Positions 28,435-35,294 of a stretch of 64,000 bases of DNA are shown here, piece after piece (within the stretch, counting starts at the first letter, position 1; every line of letters begins with the position of its first letter). The notes beneath the pieces were generated by a model that did not search any database, was not told where the DNA came from, and saw only the letters and a list, made by a program, of their open reading frames with translations. The stretch comes from Novosphingobium sp. G106. GTDB lineage: Bacteria > Pseudomonadota > Alphaproteobacteria > Sphingomonadales > Sphingomonadaceae. The position numbers and the translations under genes were made by a program. The DNA lies in the NCBI RefSeq assembly GCF_019075875.1, contig NZ_JAHOOZ010000001.1, positions 744,001 to 808,000 on the forward strand, written 5' to 3'.

Positions 28435-28720
28435 CTATCGGTCGACCCGCAATGAAGGATGTAGCGATGCGGCATGCTCGACCAGCCGACACCCGATCCC
28501 ATGTTCTCGAGGCGAAGACTCGATGAACAGGGAATCGATTTGTTCTGGGCTCAACCCCATGAAGCCGGCGGCCAGACCGTCACCATCGCTGGCAAGCCAG
28601 AGCGTTGCCTGAGGCAGGAACCGTTGCACCATCTTCGTTGATGGCCAAACGATCTTCGGCCGACAGGAAATCATGCGTAGCGTCGACAGCGCTCTGAAAG
28701 GCCTGGATTACCACCTCAGC
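28435..28720 (-). pseudogene. GNAT acetyltransferase remnant, frameshifted and truncated
   Basis: Two frames together restore the N-terminal two thirds of a GNAT protein: AFQSAVDATHDFLSAEDRL in one frame, then RFLPQATLWLA, GFMGLSPEQIDSLFI and HGIGCRLVEHAASLHP in the other. One extra base lies between AINE and MVQ near 28630. The sequence stops at 28435 right after RVDR where the family continues with a conserved NEQN block. Its start overlaps the end of nrsF. Confidence 0.65.
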
Positions 28721-29350
28721 AAGCGCGGACCGACCAAGGCGCCGATAGCCGCGGCCAAACCAATTCCGAGCGTATACCAGGTAAGGACGAAGAGGGCCGA
28801 CACCTCCGGGCAATGCAGGCAATAGAGTGTCGCCGCCCAGGCTCCTGCGGCGAGACCGGCGGCAGCGCCTGTTGCGCGCAGGCGTGTCGGCGCGAGCCGC
28901 CGGAACGACCACAAGAGGCCGATGAAAATGGGCGCGGCCAGCATGAGGACGAGCCATGGGCATTTCGTCCACGAACGGCCGAGCCACATGGCGAACCATT
29001 CGCCAGGGGGGAACATGCGCCATCTCCGCGATGGCGACCGCCGCGAGCAGAAGAAAGGGAACTGTGACTGGCCAAAACGCGCGCAAGGAAACCGGTTCGG
29101 GCCTGGCAAGCTGCGCCACGACGCCAATAGCGGCGGCTCCCAGCGAAATCGTGTAAGCCCATTTCATCCAGAAGTTGAGGCCGCGCATGGCAAGGCCAAG
29201 ATCGCTCCGAAATCCAAGGCCCATCGCAATCAGCAGAATAGTGACACCGCTGCCGATGAGTATTCCGAGCAGTAGCCGCCGGCGCACGGCATGCCGTGGA
29301 ACAGGGGTTACATCCTTTGCCAGTTCGTCGATCAGGGAGTCGGTATTCAT
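28708..29350 (-). CDS. nrsF: NrsF-like (DUF1109) membrane anti-sigma factor, frameshifted
   Basis: The partner of the adjacent SigF-type sigma factor; its ATG overlaps the sigma stop (ATGA). The N-terminal part has spans LLLGILIGSGVTILLIAMG and AFWPVTVPFLLLAAVAIAE; the remainder, including SWTKCPWLVLMLA and LYCLHCPEVSALFVLTWY, is in another frame. Both frames join if one C is deleted from the run of six G on the plus strand at 29006-29011. The intact protein would be about 213 residues with six spans and the conserved Cys positions thought to sense metal or oxidative signals. Real loss would leave the sigma factor unrestrained. Confidence 0.8.
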
Positions 29351-29883
29351 GGACGCGCCCCTCGGATGCGGGCCGCCAGGGCCTTGAGGCCACGGTGGAC
29401 TGAGACTTTGACGTCGGACTCGCTGATATCGGTAAGACTTGCTGCCTCGGCGGTACTCTGACCCGCGATCCTCGTCTGGCGGATCGCTTTGGCCTGCTTT
29501 TCGGGAAGTGTGGCAAGCAGCCGTTCGATGTCGATCGAGGCACTCACCGCGTCTTCAAAACCTTCGGAAAAGAGCATGTCCTCGGCATCTTCGATGGAGC
29601 AGGTCTGCCTGGTTCGGCGAAAATGATCGATCATCTTGTAGCGGGCGACCGCGAACAGCCAGGCCGTGAACGGGCGCTCTGGGTCGTAGGTCATGCGGCG
29701 GGTGTGAACGGCGATCAGTGTTTCCTGCACGAGATCCTCGATGACATCGCCATCAGCGACGCGGCGACGGTAAAAGGCGCGCAGCAAGGGAACCAGCGCC
29801 CGCAGCAAGATGGCATGCGAAGCCGCATTGCCGCCGAGACCCTCGGTCATCCAGGATTTGAGCTGGTCTTCGCCCGGCTGCAT
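29347..29883 (-). CDS. sigF: SigF-type ECF sigma factor
   Basis: A 178-residue ECF sigma factor. Region 2 is seen in DVIEDLVQETLIAVHTRR and PFTAWLFAVARYKMIDHFRR; region 4 in LPEKQAKAIRQTRIAGQS and SDVKVSVHRGLKALAAR. ATG 29883 has AGGAG five bases upstream; GTG 29889 overlaps that site. It is cotranscribed with the DUF1109 protein, the pairing called SigF-NrsF in Caulobacter, where it answers to heavy-metal and oxidative stress. A matching promoter lies just upstream (29903-29928), which implies autoregulation. Confidence 0.9.
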   Translation of the reverse strand: MQPGEDQLKSWMTEGLGGNAASHAILLRALVPLLRAFYRRRVADGDVIEDLVQETLIAVHTRRMTYDPERPFTAWLFAVARYKMIDHFRRTRQTCSIEDAEDMLFSEGFEDAVSASIDIERLLATLPEKQAKAIRQTRIAGQSTAEAASLTDISESDVKVSVHRGLKALAARIRGARP

Positions 29884-29900
29884 TCGCACTCCTGGAGAGC

Positions 29901-29928
29901 TATTCGCAGGGAACAGATCTTTGGTTAC
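29901..29928 (-). promoter_or_regulatory. SigF-type promoter of sigF-nrsF
   Basis: On the minus strand GTAACC (29928-29923) is followed by 16 bases and CGAATA (29906-29901). The expected transcription start is about 10-12 bases before the sigF ATG. The same motif and spacing occur at three other promoters in this locus. Confidence 0.8.
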
Positions 29929-30013
29929 AAGGCGCCGCGATATTTTGCGATGCGCTTCTTAGGAGCCGCTCGGGAGACCACCAGGCGGTGACACGGATAA
30001 ATTTCGCATCGCT

Positions 30014-30041
30014 GTAACCGGTCCGAGGTTCGACGCGAACT
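30014..30041 (+). promoter_or_regulatory. SigF-type promoter of the DUF1223-msrP operon
   Basis: GTAACC at 30014-30019, 16 bases, then CGAA at 30036-30039, on the plus strand, 50 bases upstream of the DUF1223 start. Motif and spacing are identical to the sigF promoter. Confidence 0.8.
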
Positions 30042-30090
30042 CCCTGCAGCACCGACCGATCCGGCCGGTGATCACATGGGAAGACTTCCG

Positions 30091-30825
30091 ATGCAGCCGC
30101 GCAAACACTTTGCCATCGCCCTGGCCGGCTGCGTCATCTTCGTACTGAGCGGCTGCGACACGTCCAAAGCTTCGTCGCTGCCGAAAGGGGCCGCACAGAC
30201 ATCCAGCCGCAATCCTGTTGTCGTCGAACTGTTCCAGAGCCAGGGCTGCTCGTCCTGTCCTCCGGCAAATGCCGACCTGAATGCCATCGCCGACCGGCGC
30301 GATGTGCTCGCTCTGTCCTTCGCGGTCACCTACTGGGACCGGCTCGGCTGGAAGGACACCTTCGCCTCGCCGCTGTTTACCGCGCGGCAAGAGGCCTATG
30401 CCCGGGCCGGGCGAGGCGAGGTGGCGACGCCAGAATTCATCGTCAATGGCGAGGCGGCCGTGCTGGGCACCAATCGCTCGGCCCTGGACGCCGCTATTGC
30501 GCGCGGCTTCGCGCCAGCTCCAGGTCCTACCATTTCCGCCAACCCGTCGAGCGTTCGTATCGAAGCGGCGGCTCGTGGAGCGCCCGCGACCGTCTGGCTC
30601 GTCCGTTACGATCCACGAACGCGGCAAGTTCCCATCCGGGCCGGCGAGAACGGCGGCCGCACGTTGCCCCACCGCAACATCGTCCGCGAGCTCATCAGGC
30701 TGGGCGACTGGACGGGTCAAGCAGCCACTTTCCCACTCGCCCCGCAGCGCGAAGCGGGACTGGTCTCGGCCATTCTGGTTCAGCGTGGCAGCGGCGGTCC
30801 GATCGTCGCTGCGCGCAAGCTTTGA
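30091..30825 (+). CDS. DUF1223 thioredoxin-like lipoprotein
   Basis: A 244-residue exported protein. The N-terminus is a lipoprotein signal ending in LSGC, so it is membrane anchored on the periplasmic side. The DUF1223 core begins VVVELFQSQGCSSCPPAN, where CSSC is a thioredoxin-type redox pair, followed by VTYWDRLGWKDTFASP and TPEFIVNG. ATG 30091 has GGAAGA nearby; the ATG at 30076 has no ribosome site. It is the first gene of the operon behind a SigF-type promoter and probably takes part in periplasmic thiol or metal redox chemistry; its exact reaction is unknown. Confidence 0.85.
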   Translation: MQPRKHFAIALAGCVIFVLSGCDTSKASSLPKGAAQTSSRNPVVVELFQSQGCSSCPPANADLNAIADRRDVLALSFAVTYWDRLGWKDTFASPLFTARQEAYARAGRGEVATPEFIVNGEAAVLGTNRSALDAAIARGFAPAPGPTISANPSSVRIEAAARGAPATVWLVRYDPRTRQVPIRAGENGGRTLPHRNIVRELIRLGDWTGQAATFPLAPQREAGLVSAILVQRGSGGPIVAARKL

Positions 30826-30893
30826 CAGTTTCTCAGCCGCCGGCGTCGCGGCTGCCATTCACCATGCGACGCCAAATCCAAGGAGATTATTTC

Positions 30894-31187
30894 ATGCGCA
30901 TTCTAACTATTCTCGCCCTGTCGGCGATGTCGTTTTCGACCGCTGCACCTGTCTTTGCCCAGGACACGATGATGAAGGACGGCATGCATTCGGGCGCGAT
31001 GGCGCACATGTCGGCTGCCGACACACGCCGGATGAACAGCTGCAAGGCGATGTCGCACGACGCGATGATGCGCAACGCCTCGTGCCGCCGCATGGCACAG
31101 ATGCATCCGGACATGATGCACCACGACAACATGATGAAGCACGACGGCGCCATGGCTCACGACAACATGATGAAGTCGGGTCACTGA
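30894..31187 (+). CDS. methionine/histidine-rich small secreted protein
   Basis: A 97-residue protein with a signal peptide (residues 1-22, ending PVFA). By my count 18 of 75 mature residues are methionine and 9 are histidine, arranged in short units like MMKDG, AMAHM, DMMHHD and NMMKHD, plus two cysteines. It resembles the pentapeptide MxKDx repeat proteins. The ribosome site AAGGAGATT precedes the ATG. It lies between the DUF1223 lipoprotein and the cytochrome b/MsrP pair under a SigF-type promoter. Candidate roles are metal buffering (Cu, via Met/His) or a sacrificial methionine target for oxidants, both inference. Confidence 0.8.
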   Translation: MRILTILALSAMSFSTAAPVFAQDTMMKDGMHSGAMAHMSAADTRRMNSCKAMSHDAMMRNASCRRMAQMHPDMMHHDNMMKHDGAMAHDNMMKSGH

Positions 31188-31250
31188 GCCTAGGCTGGGA
31201 TGACGCCCGCCGACGTCATCCCGGCAAACTTTCGATCAGGAAGGTGCACT

Positions 31251-32069
31251 ATGGATGTTTCTGCCTCTCGCGGCCTCTGCGGCGGCGATCTGGTCTACCG
31301 TCAGCGGCGGCCGGTGCGCCTTTGGCATTGGATCAACGCGTTGTCGGTCTTCGTCATGCTGATGAGCGGTCTGATGATCTTCAACGCGCATCCACAGCTC
31401 TATTGGGGCCAGTACGGCGCCAACCACGAGAAGCCTTGGCTGGCGATCGGCGCCAAGGATGATGCGGGGTTCCTGAAGCTGGGCACGGTGACTATCCCCA
31501 CGACGGGCGTGCTGGGCCTTTCGGGCGGCATCGAGCGGGCGTTTCCGCCGCTCGTTACCATTCCTTCCAGCTACGATCTCGCGGGAGCCCGGCAATGGCA
31601 CTTCGCCTTCGCCTGGCTGCTCGTGGTCCCTGGCCTGATGTTCTGGCTCTGGGGGCTGGTTACAAGGCACGTCCAGCGCGATCTCGCGCCAACGCTGGCA
31701 GAACTCCAGCCGCGGCATCTGTGGCAGGATATCAAGGATCATGCCCGGCTGCGCTTCCACACGGGAGAGGCAGCGCGGCGCTACAACGTGCTTCAGAAGC
31801 TCAGCTACATCAGCGTGCTCTTCGGGCTGCTCCCCGCCATGGTGCTGACCGGTCTCACCATGTCGCCCGGGATGGATGCCGCCTGGCCCTGGCTGCTCGA
31901 CATTTTCGGCGGCCGCCAGTCGGCGCGTTCGATCCATTTCATCTGTGCAGCCCTCCTGGTGCTTTTCATTCTTGTTCACTTGCTGATGGTCGTCCTCGCC
32001 GGTCCGCTCAACGAGATGCGCTCGATCGTCACCGGCTGGTACCGCCTGCCCAAGGAGAAGGCTCGATGA
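31251..32069 (+). CDS. cytochrome b561-type membrane protein
   Basis: A 272-residue integral membrane cytochrome with four to five spans. The heme-coordinating histidines probably include those in LWHWINAL near the start, WHFAFAWLLVV in the middle and SIHFICAALLVLFILVHLLM near the end. It overlaps the MsrP-like gene by four bases (ATGA), so the two proteins are made together. Like YedZ/MsrQ it would feed quinol electrons to the periplasmic molybdoprotein, although its sequence is of the cytochrome b561/thiosulfate reductase type rather than MsrQ. Start ATG 31251 follows AGGAAGGTG. Confidence 0.85.
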   Translation: MDVSASRGLCGGDLVYRQRRPVRLWHWINALSVFVMLMSGLMIFNAHPQLYWGQYGANHEKPWLAIGAKDDAGFLKLGTVTIPTTGVLGLSGGIERAFPPLVTIPSSYDLAGARQWHFAFAWLLVVPGLMFWLWGLVTRHVQRDLAPTLAELQPRHLWQDIKDHARLRFHTGEAARRYNVLQKLSYISVLFGLLPAMVLTGLTMSPGMDAAWPWLLDIFGGRQSARSIHFICAALLVLFILVHLLMVVLAGPLNEMRSIVTGWYRLPKEKAR

Positions 32070-32842
32070 CTACCCTCACGCGCCCCGTCCTTACACGTCG
32101 GCGCCTGATCGGTTCGCTCGGGGCCGGTGCCGGCAGCTTGCTGCTTTCCGGCTGCGACAGGATCGCCGCTGTGCCTGCCGTGCAGCAAGTACTGGGCGCC
32201 GGCGAGGGACTGACATTCCGCGCGCAGCGCCTGCTGTCCGACCGCACTGCTCTGGCCCGCGAGTTCTCGGCGCTCGACATGTCGCCGGTGTTCCGGACCA
32301 ACGGCAACACTGCCCCGACCGCCAATGATTATGAACGACATGCCGCGGAGAAATTCGTCAACTGGCGGCTCGTCGTCGACGGGCTTGTCAGGCGGCCGCA
32401 GTCGCTATCGATGACCCAGATCCGGGCAATGCCGGCGCGCACGCAGATCACCCGTCACGACTGCGTCGAGGGTTGGAGCGCGATCGGCAAGTGGACCGGG
32501 CTGCCGCTCAAACTGGCGCTCGACGCGGCCGGTGTCCTGCCCTCAGCGCGCTACGTCGTATTCCACTGTGCCGACGATTTCGACGGTGATCCCTACTACG
32601 AGAGCATCGACCTGATCGATGGCTATCATCCTCAGACGATCCTCGCCTGGGGCATGAACGACGAGATGCTGAGCGTCGGCCACGGCGCGCCGCTGCGCCT
32701 GCGGGTCGAGCGTCAGCTCGGCTACAAGCAGGCGAAATACGTGATGCGGGTCAGCCTGGTCGCCAGCATGGCCGAGATCGGCGCGGGGAAGGGCGGCTAC
32801 TGGGAGGATGCGGCCGGGTACCAGTGGTACGCCGGGATCTAG
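32066..32842 (+). CDS. molybdopterin-dependent oxidoreductase, MsrP/YedY-like
   Basis: A 258-residue molybdoprotein of the sulfite-oxidase fold. The twin-arginine signal (LTRRRLIGSLGAG, then LLLSGC) directs folded export. The molybdenum-ligating Cys is C133 in HDCVEGW, followed by the family block TGLPLKLALDAAG and VFHCADDFDGDPYYESI. MsrP-type enzymes reduce methionine sulfoxide in periplasmic proteins. With the membrane cytochrome b upstream it forms a two-component reductase. Its placement behind a Met-rich peptide and beside msrA supports a methionine-repair role, although sulfite or another S-oxide could also be the substrate. Confidence 0.85.
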   Translation: MTTLTRPVLTRRRLIGSLGAGAGSLLLSGCDRIAAVPAVQQVLGAGEGLTFRAQRLLSDRTALAREFSALDMSPVFRTNGNTAPTANDYERHAAEKFVNWRLVVDGLVRRPQSLSMTQIRAMPARTQITRHDCVEGWSAIGKWTGLPLKLALDAAGVLPSARYVVFHCADDFDGDPYYESIDLIDGYHPQTILAWGMNDEMLSVGHGAPLRLRVERQLGYKQAKYVMRVSLVASMAEIGAGKGGYWEDAAGYQWYAGI

Positions 32843-33360
32843 GGAAGCTTGCGAACGCGGCCGTTGAAGTCGCGTTTGCCGATCGAAACGCCCTTCATCC
32901 GCAGGATGTCGTAGGCCGTCGCCGCGTGGAAATAGAAGTTCGGCTGGGAGAACGAGAGCAGAAACTCTTCGGCGACAAAATCCATGTGGTTCGCGCCAAA
33001 CTCGAAGCGCATGAGCCGTCCTATGAAGCTCTCCACTTCATCCCGGTCGAGCGCTTCAAGCGCGGCGATCGTCTGATCCACCCGCTCGCGCAGTCCATCG
33101 AAAGTGTCCGGCGGCGTTGTGGTGTCGGGAGAAAACGTGCCTTTGCGCACGCCTTCGATCGCGCCAAGCGAATGAACCGCGGTCGACTTCACCTGATAGG
33201 CGAAAGGCAGCATGTCCTCGGCGAGCTTCGCCTGGATCAGGGCTTCTGGTTCAAAGCCTTGATCGCTGCAAAAGGTCTCGGCCTTGCTGATGAGCCGCGA
33301 GACCGAGCCGAGGATCTGGAGGTAAGACGGGATGGTTGCGGCATAGAGCGTGAAGGCCAT
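32839..33360 (-). CDS. DUF1993 family protein
   Basis: A 173-residue protein starting at ATG 33360 (MAFTLYAATIPSYLQ) after GGAAGAGAAATC. It shows the DUF1993 pattern: LPFAYQVKSTAVHSLGAIEGV and EFLLSFSQPNFYFHAATAYDILR, probably a four-helix bundle related to DinB-like folds. It follows msrA by 26 bases on the same strand and ends overlapping the stop of the convergent MsrP gene. Cotranscription with msrA behind a SigF-type promoter is expected. Function unknown. Confidence 0.85.
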   Translation of the reverse strand: MAFTLYAATIPSYLQILGSVSRLISKAETFCSDQGFEPEALIQAKLAEDMLPFAYQVKSTAVHSLGAIEGVRKGTFSPDTTTPPDTFDGLRERVDQTIAALEALDRDEVESFIGRLMRFEFGANHMDFVAEEFLLSFSQPNFYFHAATAYDILRMKGVSIGKRDFNGRVRKLP

Positions 33361-33386
33361 GATTTCTCTTCCCCGAACAGGCGCGA

Positions 33387-34055
33387 TCAAGATTTCCAGT
33401 TGGCGGGGAACAGCTTGTGCAGCGCTTCCACCTTGGGCCGATCGTTGAAGACGATATAGGGGTAGTTGGGGTTACGGGCCATGAAATCCTGATGATAGGG
33501 CTCGGCGGGATAGAACGCCCGGTTCATTTCGATCCGCGTCGCGATCGGTCGCGAAAAGACATGCGCAGCGCTCAACTGGGCGATGTAGGCACGGGCTACC
33601 CGCTCCTGCGCAGGCGAAACGGGAAACAGCGCCGTGCGATACTGGGTGCCCGTATCGGGACCCTGGCGATTGACCTGTGTCGGATCTGCCACCACCGAAA
33701 AATAGATGCGCAGCAAGTCCGCGTAGTTGACCTGGGCCGGGTCGAACACGACCCGCACCGATTCCGCATGGCCCGTCGTGCCGCTCGAGACCGTCTCGTA
33801 GCTCGCGGTGGAGGCGCTGCCGCCCGCATAGCCCGAAGTCGCACTGATCACGCCGTTCACGTGCGAGAAGACGCCTTGCACGCCCCAGAAACAGCCGCCC
33901 GCAAAAACGGCGGTCTCGCGGTGCCCAGCTACGGGCTCGGTCATGGCAGCTGTCGGCGCCTTGACGCTTCCTTCCGCGGCGTTCCCCGCGCCCATGAAAA
34001 AGAACAGCGCGGTGCCGGCAGCAAGGGCAAGGGCGGTGGAAGCGATACGCGACAT
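33387..34055 (-). CDS. msrA: peptide methionine sulfoxide reductase MsrA, exported
   Basis: A 222-residue MsrA with an N-terminal signal peptide (LALAAGTALFFFMGAGNAA). The catalytic motif GGCFWG contains Cys55; other family blocks are SGYAGGSASTASYETVSSG, GHAESVRVVFDPAQVNY, and PYHQDFMARNP. No C-terminal resolving cysteine is visible, so recycling would need another partner. The exported form repairs methionine-S-sulfoxide in the periplasm. ATG 34055 has AGAGGAT upstream. A SigF-type promoter lies at 34087-34114. Confidence 0.9.
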   Translation of the reverse strand: MSRIASTALALAAGTALFFFMGAGNAAEGSVKAPTAAMTEPVAGHRETAVFAGGCFWGVQGVFSHVNGVISATSGYAGGSASTASYETVSSGTTGHAESVRVVFDPAQVNYADLLRIYFSVVADPTQVNRQGPDTGTQYRTALFPVSPAQERVARAYIAQLSAAHVFSRPIATRIEMNRAFYPAEPYHQDFMARNPNYPYIVFNDRPKVEALHKLFPANWKS

Positions 34056-34086
34056 GGCGGATATCCTCTGTGGGAGATTTTATTCC

Positions 34087-34114
34087 TATTCGCGCGGCAA
34101 CGCCTAATGGTTAC
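34087..34114 (-). promoter_or_regulatory. SigF-type promoter of msrA-DUF1993
   Basis: On the minus strand GTAACC (34114-34109), 16 bases, CGAATA (34092-34087), ending 31 bases before the msrA ATG. Identical spacing to the other three copies. Confidence 0.8.
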
Positions 34115-34270
34115 AGCGCTTCGAGCGAGCCAGCCTGAGATAGGTTTGCCGGGTGTTTTTGCGAGCGCCAGCTCGGAAGTTTCCTGGCTTCTGGAATTGC
34201 GATGCTGCGGAGAAAGTGCTGCCCTCGCGTGGATGCACAGACCGGTTGCTTTGTTTCCAGATGGGCGTCT

Positions 34271-34298
34271 GTAACCATTTGCGCTGAGCCCGCGAATA
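34271..34298 (+). promoter_or_regulatory. SigF-type promoter of the GNAT pair
   Basis: GTAACC at 34271-34276, 16 bases, CGAATA at 34293-34298 on the plus strand. The ATG of the first acetyltransferase is at 34306, only 7 bases beyond, so the transcript would be leaderless or nearly so. It diverges from the msrA promoter. Confidence 0.8.
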
Positions 34299-34305
34299 GA
34301 GGGCC

Positions 34306-34881
34306 ATGACCAAAGTCCCTTGTGAATCACAAACATCGGATCGCAATCTGGCCGCGCAGATCCGATCCGCGCGAAGTGCCGACACAGCGTTCTTCCCTGC
34401 AATCGAGCGTTCGGCTGGACTAGCCTTTCGCGAAATACCCGAGCTCGCGTGGATCGCGTATGGCGATGACCTGCCTCCCGATTTCCATTGGCCGCTTGTA
34501 GAAGCAGGGACATGCTGGACGGCAGCAGGCTGTGATGATCGTCCGATCGGTTTTCTAAGCGCGCAGATTTTCTCCGGTGATCTCCACATATGGGAGCTGT
34601 CGGTGCGCCTCGATCGGCAGCGTCTGGGAATAGGGCGTTGTCTACTCCGGGCGGCAATCCATGAAGGGAGGCTGCGGAACCTCGCTTCCGTCACATTGAC
34701 GACATTTCGTGACGTGCCCTGGAATGCGCCGTTCTATGCAATGCATGGTTTTCTGGAGCTCGGGGGTTCGGAGCTCGATCCGCGTCTCCTGGCTCGTCTT
34801 CAGGATGAGGCGAAACGCGATTTCCCGCGTGATCAACGCTGCGCGATGCGACTGCCCCTTCAAGTCGGTGACGAACAGTGA
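34306..34881 (+). CDS. GNAT acetyltransferase
   Basis: A 191-residue GNAT-fold protein. The acetyl-CoA loop is RQRLGIGRCLL, preceded by the strand DLHIWELSVRL and followed by FYAMHGFLELGG. No good ribosome binding site precedes the ATG and the promoter is adjacent, so translation is probably from a near-leaderless mRNA. Its stop overlaps the start of the next GNAT gene (GTGA at 34878). Substrate unknown; the SigF-type promoter links it to stress. Confidence 0.8.
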   Translation: MTKVPCESQTSDRNLAAQIRSARSADTAFFPAIERSAGLAFREIPELAWIAYGDDLPPDFHWPLVEAGTCWTAAGCDDRPIGFLSAQIFSGDLHIWELSVRLDRQRLGIGRCLLRAAIHEGRLRNLASVTLTTFRDVPWNAPFYAMHGFLELGGSELDPRLLARLQDEAKRDFPRDQRCAMRLPLQVGDEQ

Positions 34882-35294
34882 ACCTCATTGCTCGGCACGA
34901 CCTCTCGGCGTTCGAAATCGACGAGATCGAGAATGACCTCTATGCGTTCAACAGCCGCGCTACAGGGCGTGCTGATGCGGCTTCGATGGGTTTTGAGATC
35001 CGCGGGGCGACCGGCGAACGAATCGCTGTTGCCACGGGCTTTTCTTGGGCCGGGATCGCCGAGATCAAGCAAATGTGGGTAGATGGGCCCCACCGGGGGC
35101 TGGGTCACGGGCGCACTTTGCTGAATGCCATGATTTGCGAGGCGCGGGCGAGGGGCGTGAGGCGGATCTGGGTTGCGAGCTTTGAATTTCAGGCGCCGGC
35201 GATGTACGAAAAAGCGGGTTTCTTGAGTATGGCTGACCTGGCAGGGTGGCCCGAGGGACATAGGCACATCGTTCTTTGCCTCACGCTTCAGTAG
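34878..35294 (+). CDS. GNAT acetyltransferase
   Basis: A 138-residue GNAT protein beginning with GTG at 34878. The CoA loop is HRGLGHGRTLL, after KQMWVDG, with MYEKAGF near the end. Translationally coupled to the preceding acetyltransferase; both are presumably expressed from the SigF-type promoter at 34271. The pair could form a heterodimer or act on related small molecules such as toxic amines. Substrate not deducible. Confidence 0.8.
   Translation: MNLIARHDLSAFEIDEIENDLYAFNSRATGRADAASMGFEIRGATGERIAVATGFSWAGIAEIKQMWVDGPHRGLGHGRTLLNAMICEARARGVRRIWVASFEFQAPAMYEKAGFLSMADLAGWPEGHRHIVLCLTLQ

Follow-up and report, generated by a model that had tools for sequence, protein, structure and literature searches.

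Four SigF-type promoter motifs in one of two paralogous modules for putative envelope methionine-sulfoxide repair in Novosphingobium sp. G106

A 4.4-kb stretch of the Novosphingobium sp. G106 genome carries four copies of the motif GTAACC-N16-CGAA around sigF, a gene for an extracytoplasmic function (ECF) sigma factor, which raises the question of whether these copies are promoters of a single regulon and what such a regulon would do. The stretch (positions 29,901 to 34,298) belongs to a window of 64,000 nucleotides that was analyzed as a whole (contig NZ_JAHOOZ010000001.1, positions 744,001 to 808,000), and positions without a contig prefix refer to this window. As judged from sequence, a stress-released SigF of ECF group 16 very probably controls methionine-sulfoxide repair in the cell envelope from these four promoters, the module being one of two paralogous copies in the genome.

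An exact scan of both strands of the window returned the motif four times only, twice on each strand, at the positions given in the initial annotation. The first site, TGTAACC-N16-CGAATA, was located before sigF itself on the minus strand (29903..29928) and is the predicted promoter of sigF-nrsF; the second, TGTAACC-N16-CGAA, was on the plus strand (30014..30039) before a unit encoding a DUF1223 protein, a methionine-rich peptide, a cytochrome b and an MsrP-like enzyme. The third (34089..34114, minus strand) precedes msrA and a DUF1993 gene, and the fourth (34271..34296, plus strand) precedes a pair of genes for GNAT-family acetyltransferases, 9 nt 5' of an ATG; both continue as CGAATA. Each site was directed into its transcription unit (sigF, DUF1223, msrA, the two GNATs), as had been annotated, and a T preceded GTAACC at all four. 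The CGAATA extension, also recorded earlier for three of the four, makes these three the sole exact GTAACC-N16-CGAATA sites of the 7.23 Mb assembly. With a matrix built from relatives' sites, the four scored 30.6 (inside the relatives' range), 28.5, 21.9 and 31.6 in the above order, and the next best position in the window scored 10.4. When up to one mismatch was allowed, 9 matches were found in the window, compared with a mean of 1.77 in shuffled sequences (largest 5; 9 was reached in none of 100 shuffles).

The motif was also found at the corresponding positions in relatives. Of 62 loci obtained in the search for sigF, 58 (L023-L080, 1.04 Mb) made up the sample, taken without selection for the motif; 57 of these were labelled sphingomonad and one (L074) as an actinobacterial bin. 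The remaining four loci, distant ECF factors with 25-31% identity, served as negatives and contained no site at up to two mismatches. A spacing of 16 gave 132 matches in 55 of the 58 loci, and each other spacing from 10 to 24 gave 0 to 4. The site facing sigF was exact in 41 of the 58 relatives and present with at most one mismatch in 55, and two of the three misses (L048, L053) had exact boxes with a 15-base spacer; the corresponding numbers for the divergent site were 43 and 54. In some relatives, the site facing sigF had the CGTA variant. In the 130 distinct exact sites collected from relatives, GTAACC was preceded by T in 87% and by C in 11%, in agreement with the published (T/C)GTAAC consensus (PMC8315932), and the spacer bases carried little information, the boxes being constant by selection. 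Because the site is conserved before sigF in relatives, autoregulation of sigF is supported. Two diverged sigma factors (L181 in genome G093, L180 in G128; 41-42% identity to SigF) also lie within about 2 kb of paired GTAACC-N16-CGAA sites, so that the promoter code may outlast large changes in sigma-factor sequence. The Sphingobium xanthum locus holds two sigF-nrsF pairs about 4 kb apart, the second of them diverged (42% and 28% identity; L048:15326-15970 region).

The motif is the known, published promoter of group 16 ECF (SigF) factors. Its resemblance to the Caulobacter SigF motif, noted in the initial annotation, proved to be identity: Caulobacter SigF genes were searched with exactly GTAACC-N16-CGAA (Kohler et al., PMC3511200). 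The group 16 consensus has been published as tGTAACc-N16-CGAA (PMC3420878) and also as (T/C)GTAAC-N17-CGAA, which has the same spacing and a shorter box (PMC8315932). The window sigF (29347..29883, minus strand; Sigma70_r2 and r4, NF009191 above cut-off) encodes 178 amino acids from an ATG that follows AGGAG, a start chosen from its context, with an alternative GTG start at 29889. Within 180 amino acids, SigF contained PF04542 (region 2) and PF08281 (region 4) only, which is the short form of group 16, and its own operon carries the tGTAACc-N16-CGAA promoter of this group at 29928-29903.

The genes behind the second and third sites encode candidate parts of a repair system, whose signal-like starts (MsrA, methionine-rich peptide, MsrP-like enzyme, DUF1223) were judged by eye from the translations. 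The plus-strand operon begins with the DUF1223 gene (30076..30825; PF06764), whose product has a lipoprotein-like start and a CSSC pair (C58, C61), followed by a gene for a peptide of 97 amino acids, 20 of them methionine, recognized by its composition and with a signal-like start (30894..31187). Then come a membrane cytochrome b of the b561/Ni-Fe hydrogenase type (31251..32069; PF01292) and a molybdopterin enzyme resembling MsrP/YedY, which has a twin-arginine start and a lipobox-like LLSGC (32066..32842; PF00174 above cut-off). A membrane electron donor is therefore present beside the MsrP-like gene in the same operon; the MsrQ model was not among the matches of this cytochrome b in the Pfam and NCBIfam scans. 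On the minus strand, msrA (33387..34055; PF01625, TIGR00401 above cut-off) encodes a peptide methionine (S)-S-oxide reductase whose N-terminus is signal-like, and a DUF1993 gene lies downstream of it (32839..33360; PF09351). A third MsrP-like gene with its own cytochrome b was found elsewhere in the genome (C1:4917842, in L179 = C1:4912001-4924000). As a regulon member it was rejected, no GTAAC[CGT]-N16-CG[AT]A site being found in the surrounding 12 kb.

Taken together, the four sites would be promoters of a group 16 ECF SigF, serving its own operon and three neighboring units. Their products, mostly exported or membrane-bound, would repair or absorb methionine oxidation in the cell envelope by means of an MsrP-like enzyme fed by the membrane cytochrome b, a sacrificial methionine-rich peptide and an exported MsrA, to which the thioredoxin-fold DUF1223 protein may pass electrons. 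By analogy with studied relatives, NrsF would sequester SigF at the membrane as long as the cells are unstressed, and attack by oxidation or metal on two conserved NrsF cysteines would free SigF and switch on all four units.

Methionine sulfoxide reductases under ECF16 control have been reported in Bradyrhizobium (PMC3420878), Brucella (PMC8315932) and Azospira (PMC4623255, PMC5748585), and the nearest modules are mrpX-yedY1 of Azospira and bcrXQP of Brucella. Brucella BcrS-AbcS is likewise an ECF16 pair with a divergent operon for a methionine-rich peptide, a membrane donor and an MsrP-like enzyme, and (T/C)GTAAC...CGAA promoters stand before both the sigma pair and bcrXQP; its donor is called MsrQ-like, whereas that of the window is of the PF01292 cytochrome b561 type, and the DUF1223, msrA and GNAT units are extra relative to the available Brucella description (PMC8315932). 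SigF-NrsF of Azospira suillum controls a methionine-rich peptide and a methionine sulfoxide reductase comparable to the candidate pair of the window, and exported msrA/msrB are added in some perchlorate islands; the Azospira module is described on such islands, whereas the window module is doubled and lies on a 6.17 Mb contig (PMC4623255, PMC5748585). Bradyrhizobium EcfF-OsrA is also a group 16 system with several methionine sulfoxide reductases, one of them exported, and a paralogous EcfS pair with possible cross-talk. Its motif, GTAAC(g,a)-N14-15-(c,t)CG(t,a), leaves a gap of 15-16 bases from the end of the six-base box to CG; its targets lie at several loci, and the available text does not identify the co-regulated thioredoxin as a DUF1223 protein (PMC3420878). 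SigF-NrsF of Caulobacter crescentus has the same promoter, a sigF-nrsF operon and two conserved NrsF cysteines, and its regulon includes DoxX and YedY/MsrP-like genes. Its output differs, consisting mainly of two paralogous DUF2282-DUF692-DUF2063 operons, of which DUF692 genes are absent here; the regulon table, as available, contains no DUF1223, methionine-rich peptide or msrA, and a single sigF-nrsF pair is reported (PMC3511200).

A paralogous sigF module with four sites of its own was identified at C1:5.779-5.787 Mb (L015 = C1:5,775,001-5,793,000), in the order nrsF, sigF, DUF1223, methionine-rich peptide, cytochrome b, MsrP-like enzyme, DUF1993, msrA, DoxX and a double-GNAT frame. Three of its sites were exact and one, before msrA, was a CGTA variant (matrix scores 27.1 to 35.1). 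Its nrsF is intact and encodes the sole intact NrsF of the genome; a fasciclin-domain gene adjoins it. Between the two modules, nucleotide identity was 82% over the aligned stretch from 28,710 to 34,005 and 65% in the GNAT parts. The two SigF proteins (81-82% identity) were sisters (100/97 support) in a 34-row tree of 31 of the 58 relatives, one further locus and the two SigFs of this genome, with Novosphingobium lentum next outward (97/86) and then Sphingobium sufflavum (96/94), both of which carry DUF1223 and the methionine-rich peptide beside sigF. The window set is therefore half of a doubled regulon, so that its description as complete in the initial annotation does not hold, given the paralogous module with four further sites. 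As the two copies share their promoter code, they probably cross-regulate. In Bradyrhizobium, expression of a group 16 sigma gene rose 3.8-fold when the anti-sigma factor of the paralogous pair was lost (PMC3420878), which makes cross-talk plausible in the present genome. The doubled sigma/anti-sigma module with one promoter code thus offers a natural test of whether cross-talk between paralogous ECF factors is avoided or used, within a compact and testable regulon of a bacterium outside the studied models. Plasmid carriage of the module was considered, since 285 plasmid records contain sigF genes of relatives (E <= 1e-20, highest identity 68%), and rejected, the window being on the 6.17 Mb contig.

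The new element is DUF1223, a thioredoxin-fold CxxC protein, as a recurrent predicted SigF target. The domain has been assigned a thioredoxin-like fold (structure 2axo; PMC3091736), and 2axo was the only structural match at E <= 0.001 to the predicted structure of the window protein (mean pLDDT 76.9). The CSSC pair and a TP motif were invariant in 17 of 17 aligned sequences. DUF1223 was encoded in 34 of 195 genus genomes (E <= 1e-30), and sites were sought within 300 nt upstream at 30 loci of 38 places, and within 1.5 kb upstream of MsrP operons at the loci of the 30 best-scoring genomes, with five control patterns (reversed, altered box, and spacings 12, 14 and 20). A SigF-class site was present at 20 of the 30 DUF1223 loci, the window's own included, and at 11 of the 30 MsrP operons, while each control gave 0 of 30 in both tests. 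Eight of these 11 operons belong to genomes covered by the sigF survey, and all eight were on a contig other than that of the sigF matches of the same genome. In Bradyrhizobium, an exported methionine sulfoxide reductase is co-regulated with a thioredoxin of the periplasm and a DsbD-like protein, and the authors speculate that these two feed it (PMC3420878); on this analogy, DUF1223 may serve MsrA as electron donor, which would place a protein of unknown function in a concrete pathway. In the open-licence full texts searched, no earlier link between DUF1223 and SigF was found; as the promoter class itself is known, the duplicated module and the recurrence of DUF1223 are the points of specialist interest. 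A wider proposal is put forward tentatively, as a possibility that may well prove too broad: DUF1223 would be a standard group 16 ECF output in sphingomonads, an envelope thioredoxin feeding exported MsrA, so that a quinone-linked line (cytochrome b-MsrP) and a thiol-linked line (DUF1223-MsrA) would repair side by side, with the double line duplicated and the two SigFs forming one cross-wired circuit of eight promoters.

Several results weigh against the proposed regulon. The methionine-rich peptide, with 18 methionines in its last 75 residues, scored 20.3 bits with TIGR02953 (penta_MxKDx; cut-off 41), and the MsrP-like enzyme scored 91.5 bits with NF003767 (MsrP), below the cut-off of 207. 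Ten of the 30 DUF1223 loci (300 nt) and 19 of the 30 MsrP loci (1.5 kb) had no site, although the window MsrP locus is counted among the 19 because its promoter sits further upstream. In the assembly, the bare motif was found 14 times and its reversed control 21 times, and a refined pattern, TGTAACB-N16-CGWA, 10 times, as was its own reversed control. The window nrsF is split as sequenced. Finally, SigF of Caulobacter responds to chromate and cadmium but did not respond to the tested peroxides, paraquat or diamide, and it controls a YedY-like gene but not its msrA homologues, which were unchanged (PMC3511200).

The last of these observations means that the trigger here could also be a metal, and the alternative that survives best is that toxic metal (chromate, cadmium or copper), and not oxidants, triggers the switch, the Msr genes being a by-product. 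Besides the Caulobacter precedent, this alternative draws on the occurrence of genes for ECF16-type sigma factors and NrsF in Buf1 bufferin clusters, in which MNIO enzymes and DUF2282 peptides make copper-binding bufferins (PMC12452194). Around sigF in the 58 relatives, DUF692/MNIO was found at 37 loci, DUF1223 at 19, both at 8 and neither at 10 (some loci were cut by contig ends); the MNIO seed matched PF05114, and of two small neighboring proteins one matched DUF2282 and one matched nothing. From these neighborhoods, the output under one promoter code seems to be copper peptides in certain species and methionine repair in others. The DoxX family, represented in the second copy, is listed both for bufferin clusters (PMC12452194) and for Caulobacter SigF (PMC3511200). 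In the whole assembly of strain G106, however, there was no match to DUF692/MNIO (PF05114), with Caulobacter detected as positive control, so that the copper-peptide output is missing, and the gene content is that of putative methionine repair. Moreover, the triggers in Brucella (PMC8315932) and Bradyrhizobium (PMC3420878) are HOCl or H2O2. We therefore regard a purely metal-responsive switch as unlikely, though as an alternative to be taken seriously.

The split nrsF bears on a second alternative, namely that this module is a second copy in decay: with its anti-sigma gene broken, either its SigF would be unchecked or the module would be left to the intact SigF-NrsF at 5.78 Mb. The initial annotation had listed sigF-nrsF as a pair, but in the given sequence nrsF (28708..29350, minus strand; NrsF/DUF1109 family, PF06532 in two pieces, confirmed in the translations) is spread over two reading frames: residues 1-113 of the NrsF profile matched at 28985-29323 and residues 101-204 at 28711-29022, and the frames join at a homopolymer run at about 29006-29011. 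By comparison, nrsF frames of at least 213 amino acids were found in all 56 of the 58 relatives whose locus had an nrsF match. This difference, the single intact NrsF in the genome and the sister relationship of the two SigFs would fit decay. On the other side, a separate 902-bp contig encodes a partial NrsF of 152 amino acids (P0111, residue 62 to the end) in one frame and identical to both window pieces over the part that it covers, which shows that an unbroken allele exists. Homopolymers are a usual place for assembly errors. An assembly error is therefore possible, as is a strain variant. Cysteines 130 and 180 of NrsF, which fall within the second window fragment, occurred in 60 of the 61 sequences aligned, in line with the two conserved cysteines of this family, and correspond, by position and not by alignment, to C131/C181 of Caulobacter NrsF and C129/C179 of OsrA. 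Loss of NrsF is disfavored by the reported failure to delete nrsF in Caulobacter (PMC3511200), which is also why the break would matter if real, though its counterparts have been deleted in Azospira (PMC4623255, PMC5748585), Bradyrhizobium (PMC3420878) and Brucella (PMC8315932). Decay of the window copy is thus rather improbable. A codon-usage frame-shift caller run over 164 kb overlooked the break in nrsF while reporting 13 elsewhere, and was not used.

A SigF regulon confined to the two promoters flanking sigF, with incidental sites before msrA and the GNAT genes, appears quite improbable. The lowest matrix score of the four is that of the msrA site, whose box in the second copy is CGTA, and how the GNAT products would relate to methionine repair is not evident; yet both module copies keep a site at both places, all four window sites have the preceding T, and CGTA also occurs before sigF in some relatives. 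The acetyltransferase unit (34306..34881 and 34878..35294, plus strand, overlapping by 4 nt; both PF00583) had been included in the annotated set, and its promoter is indeed present. Its membership depends on that promoter, however, and in the second copy the equivalent promoter leads first into the DoxX gene. The two window genes correspond there to a single 339-amino-acid frame with two GNAT domains (L015:10617-11636). In Bradyrhizobium, the ecfF transcription start was mapped 6 bp after the box (PMC3420878); by this analogy the GNAT transcript would start about 4 nt before the ATG and may be leaderless.

That the four matches reflect chance, or shared descent without promoter function, is hardly credible in spite of the genome-wide counts, since chance as the whole explanation is ruled out by the spacing test and by the fixed place of the site before sigF in relatives unselected for the motif, and since spacer bases are low in information (the boxes being constant by selection) and sites recur before DUF1223 and MsrP operons where all controls gave none, eight of the latter on contigs without sigF.

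As the reversed control is the more frequent, lone copies of the bare motif are weak evidence, and it is clustering that counts: seven of the 14 exact matches lay in the two sigF modules (four and three), and the remaining seven were scattered over about 7.2 Mb, which by our arithmetic corresponds to a chance expectation of about 0.004 per 4.4 kb. The refined pattern was built from variants seen in relatives (T before GTAAC; C, G or T as sixth base; CGAA or CGTA), and eight of its ten matches were in the two modules, four in each, with two scattered; its number, being equal to the control, shows no enrichment, whereas its concentration in the modules does. Random copies across the genome, the outcome that the initial annotation had set against its proposal, thus occur in part for the bare motif and less for the refined one. 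Bare-motif counts in 149 genus genomes, compared by eye for lower numbers in those without sigF, resembled those of the reversed control and gave no evidence for the regulon.

The seven scattered exact matches were unsupported as further regulon members: six lacked the preceding T and scored 6.9-17.5, where the 5th percentile of relatives' sites was 20.3. Two of them (C1:4417541-4417566 and C1:5051134-5051159) are identical and lie inside a repeated 327-amino-acid reading frame, apparently a duplicated element. One match to the refined pattern (C1:553059) lies amid overlapping long frames without a clear gene start. The seventh exact match (C1:2259917-2259942) is intergenic, has the preceding T and scored 20.5; it lies downstream of a putative glmS gene, is followed by frames of only 24-59 amino acids, and could drive a small RNA or a small peptide.

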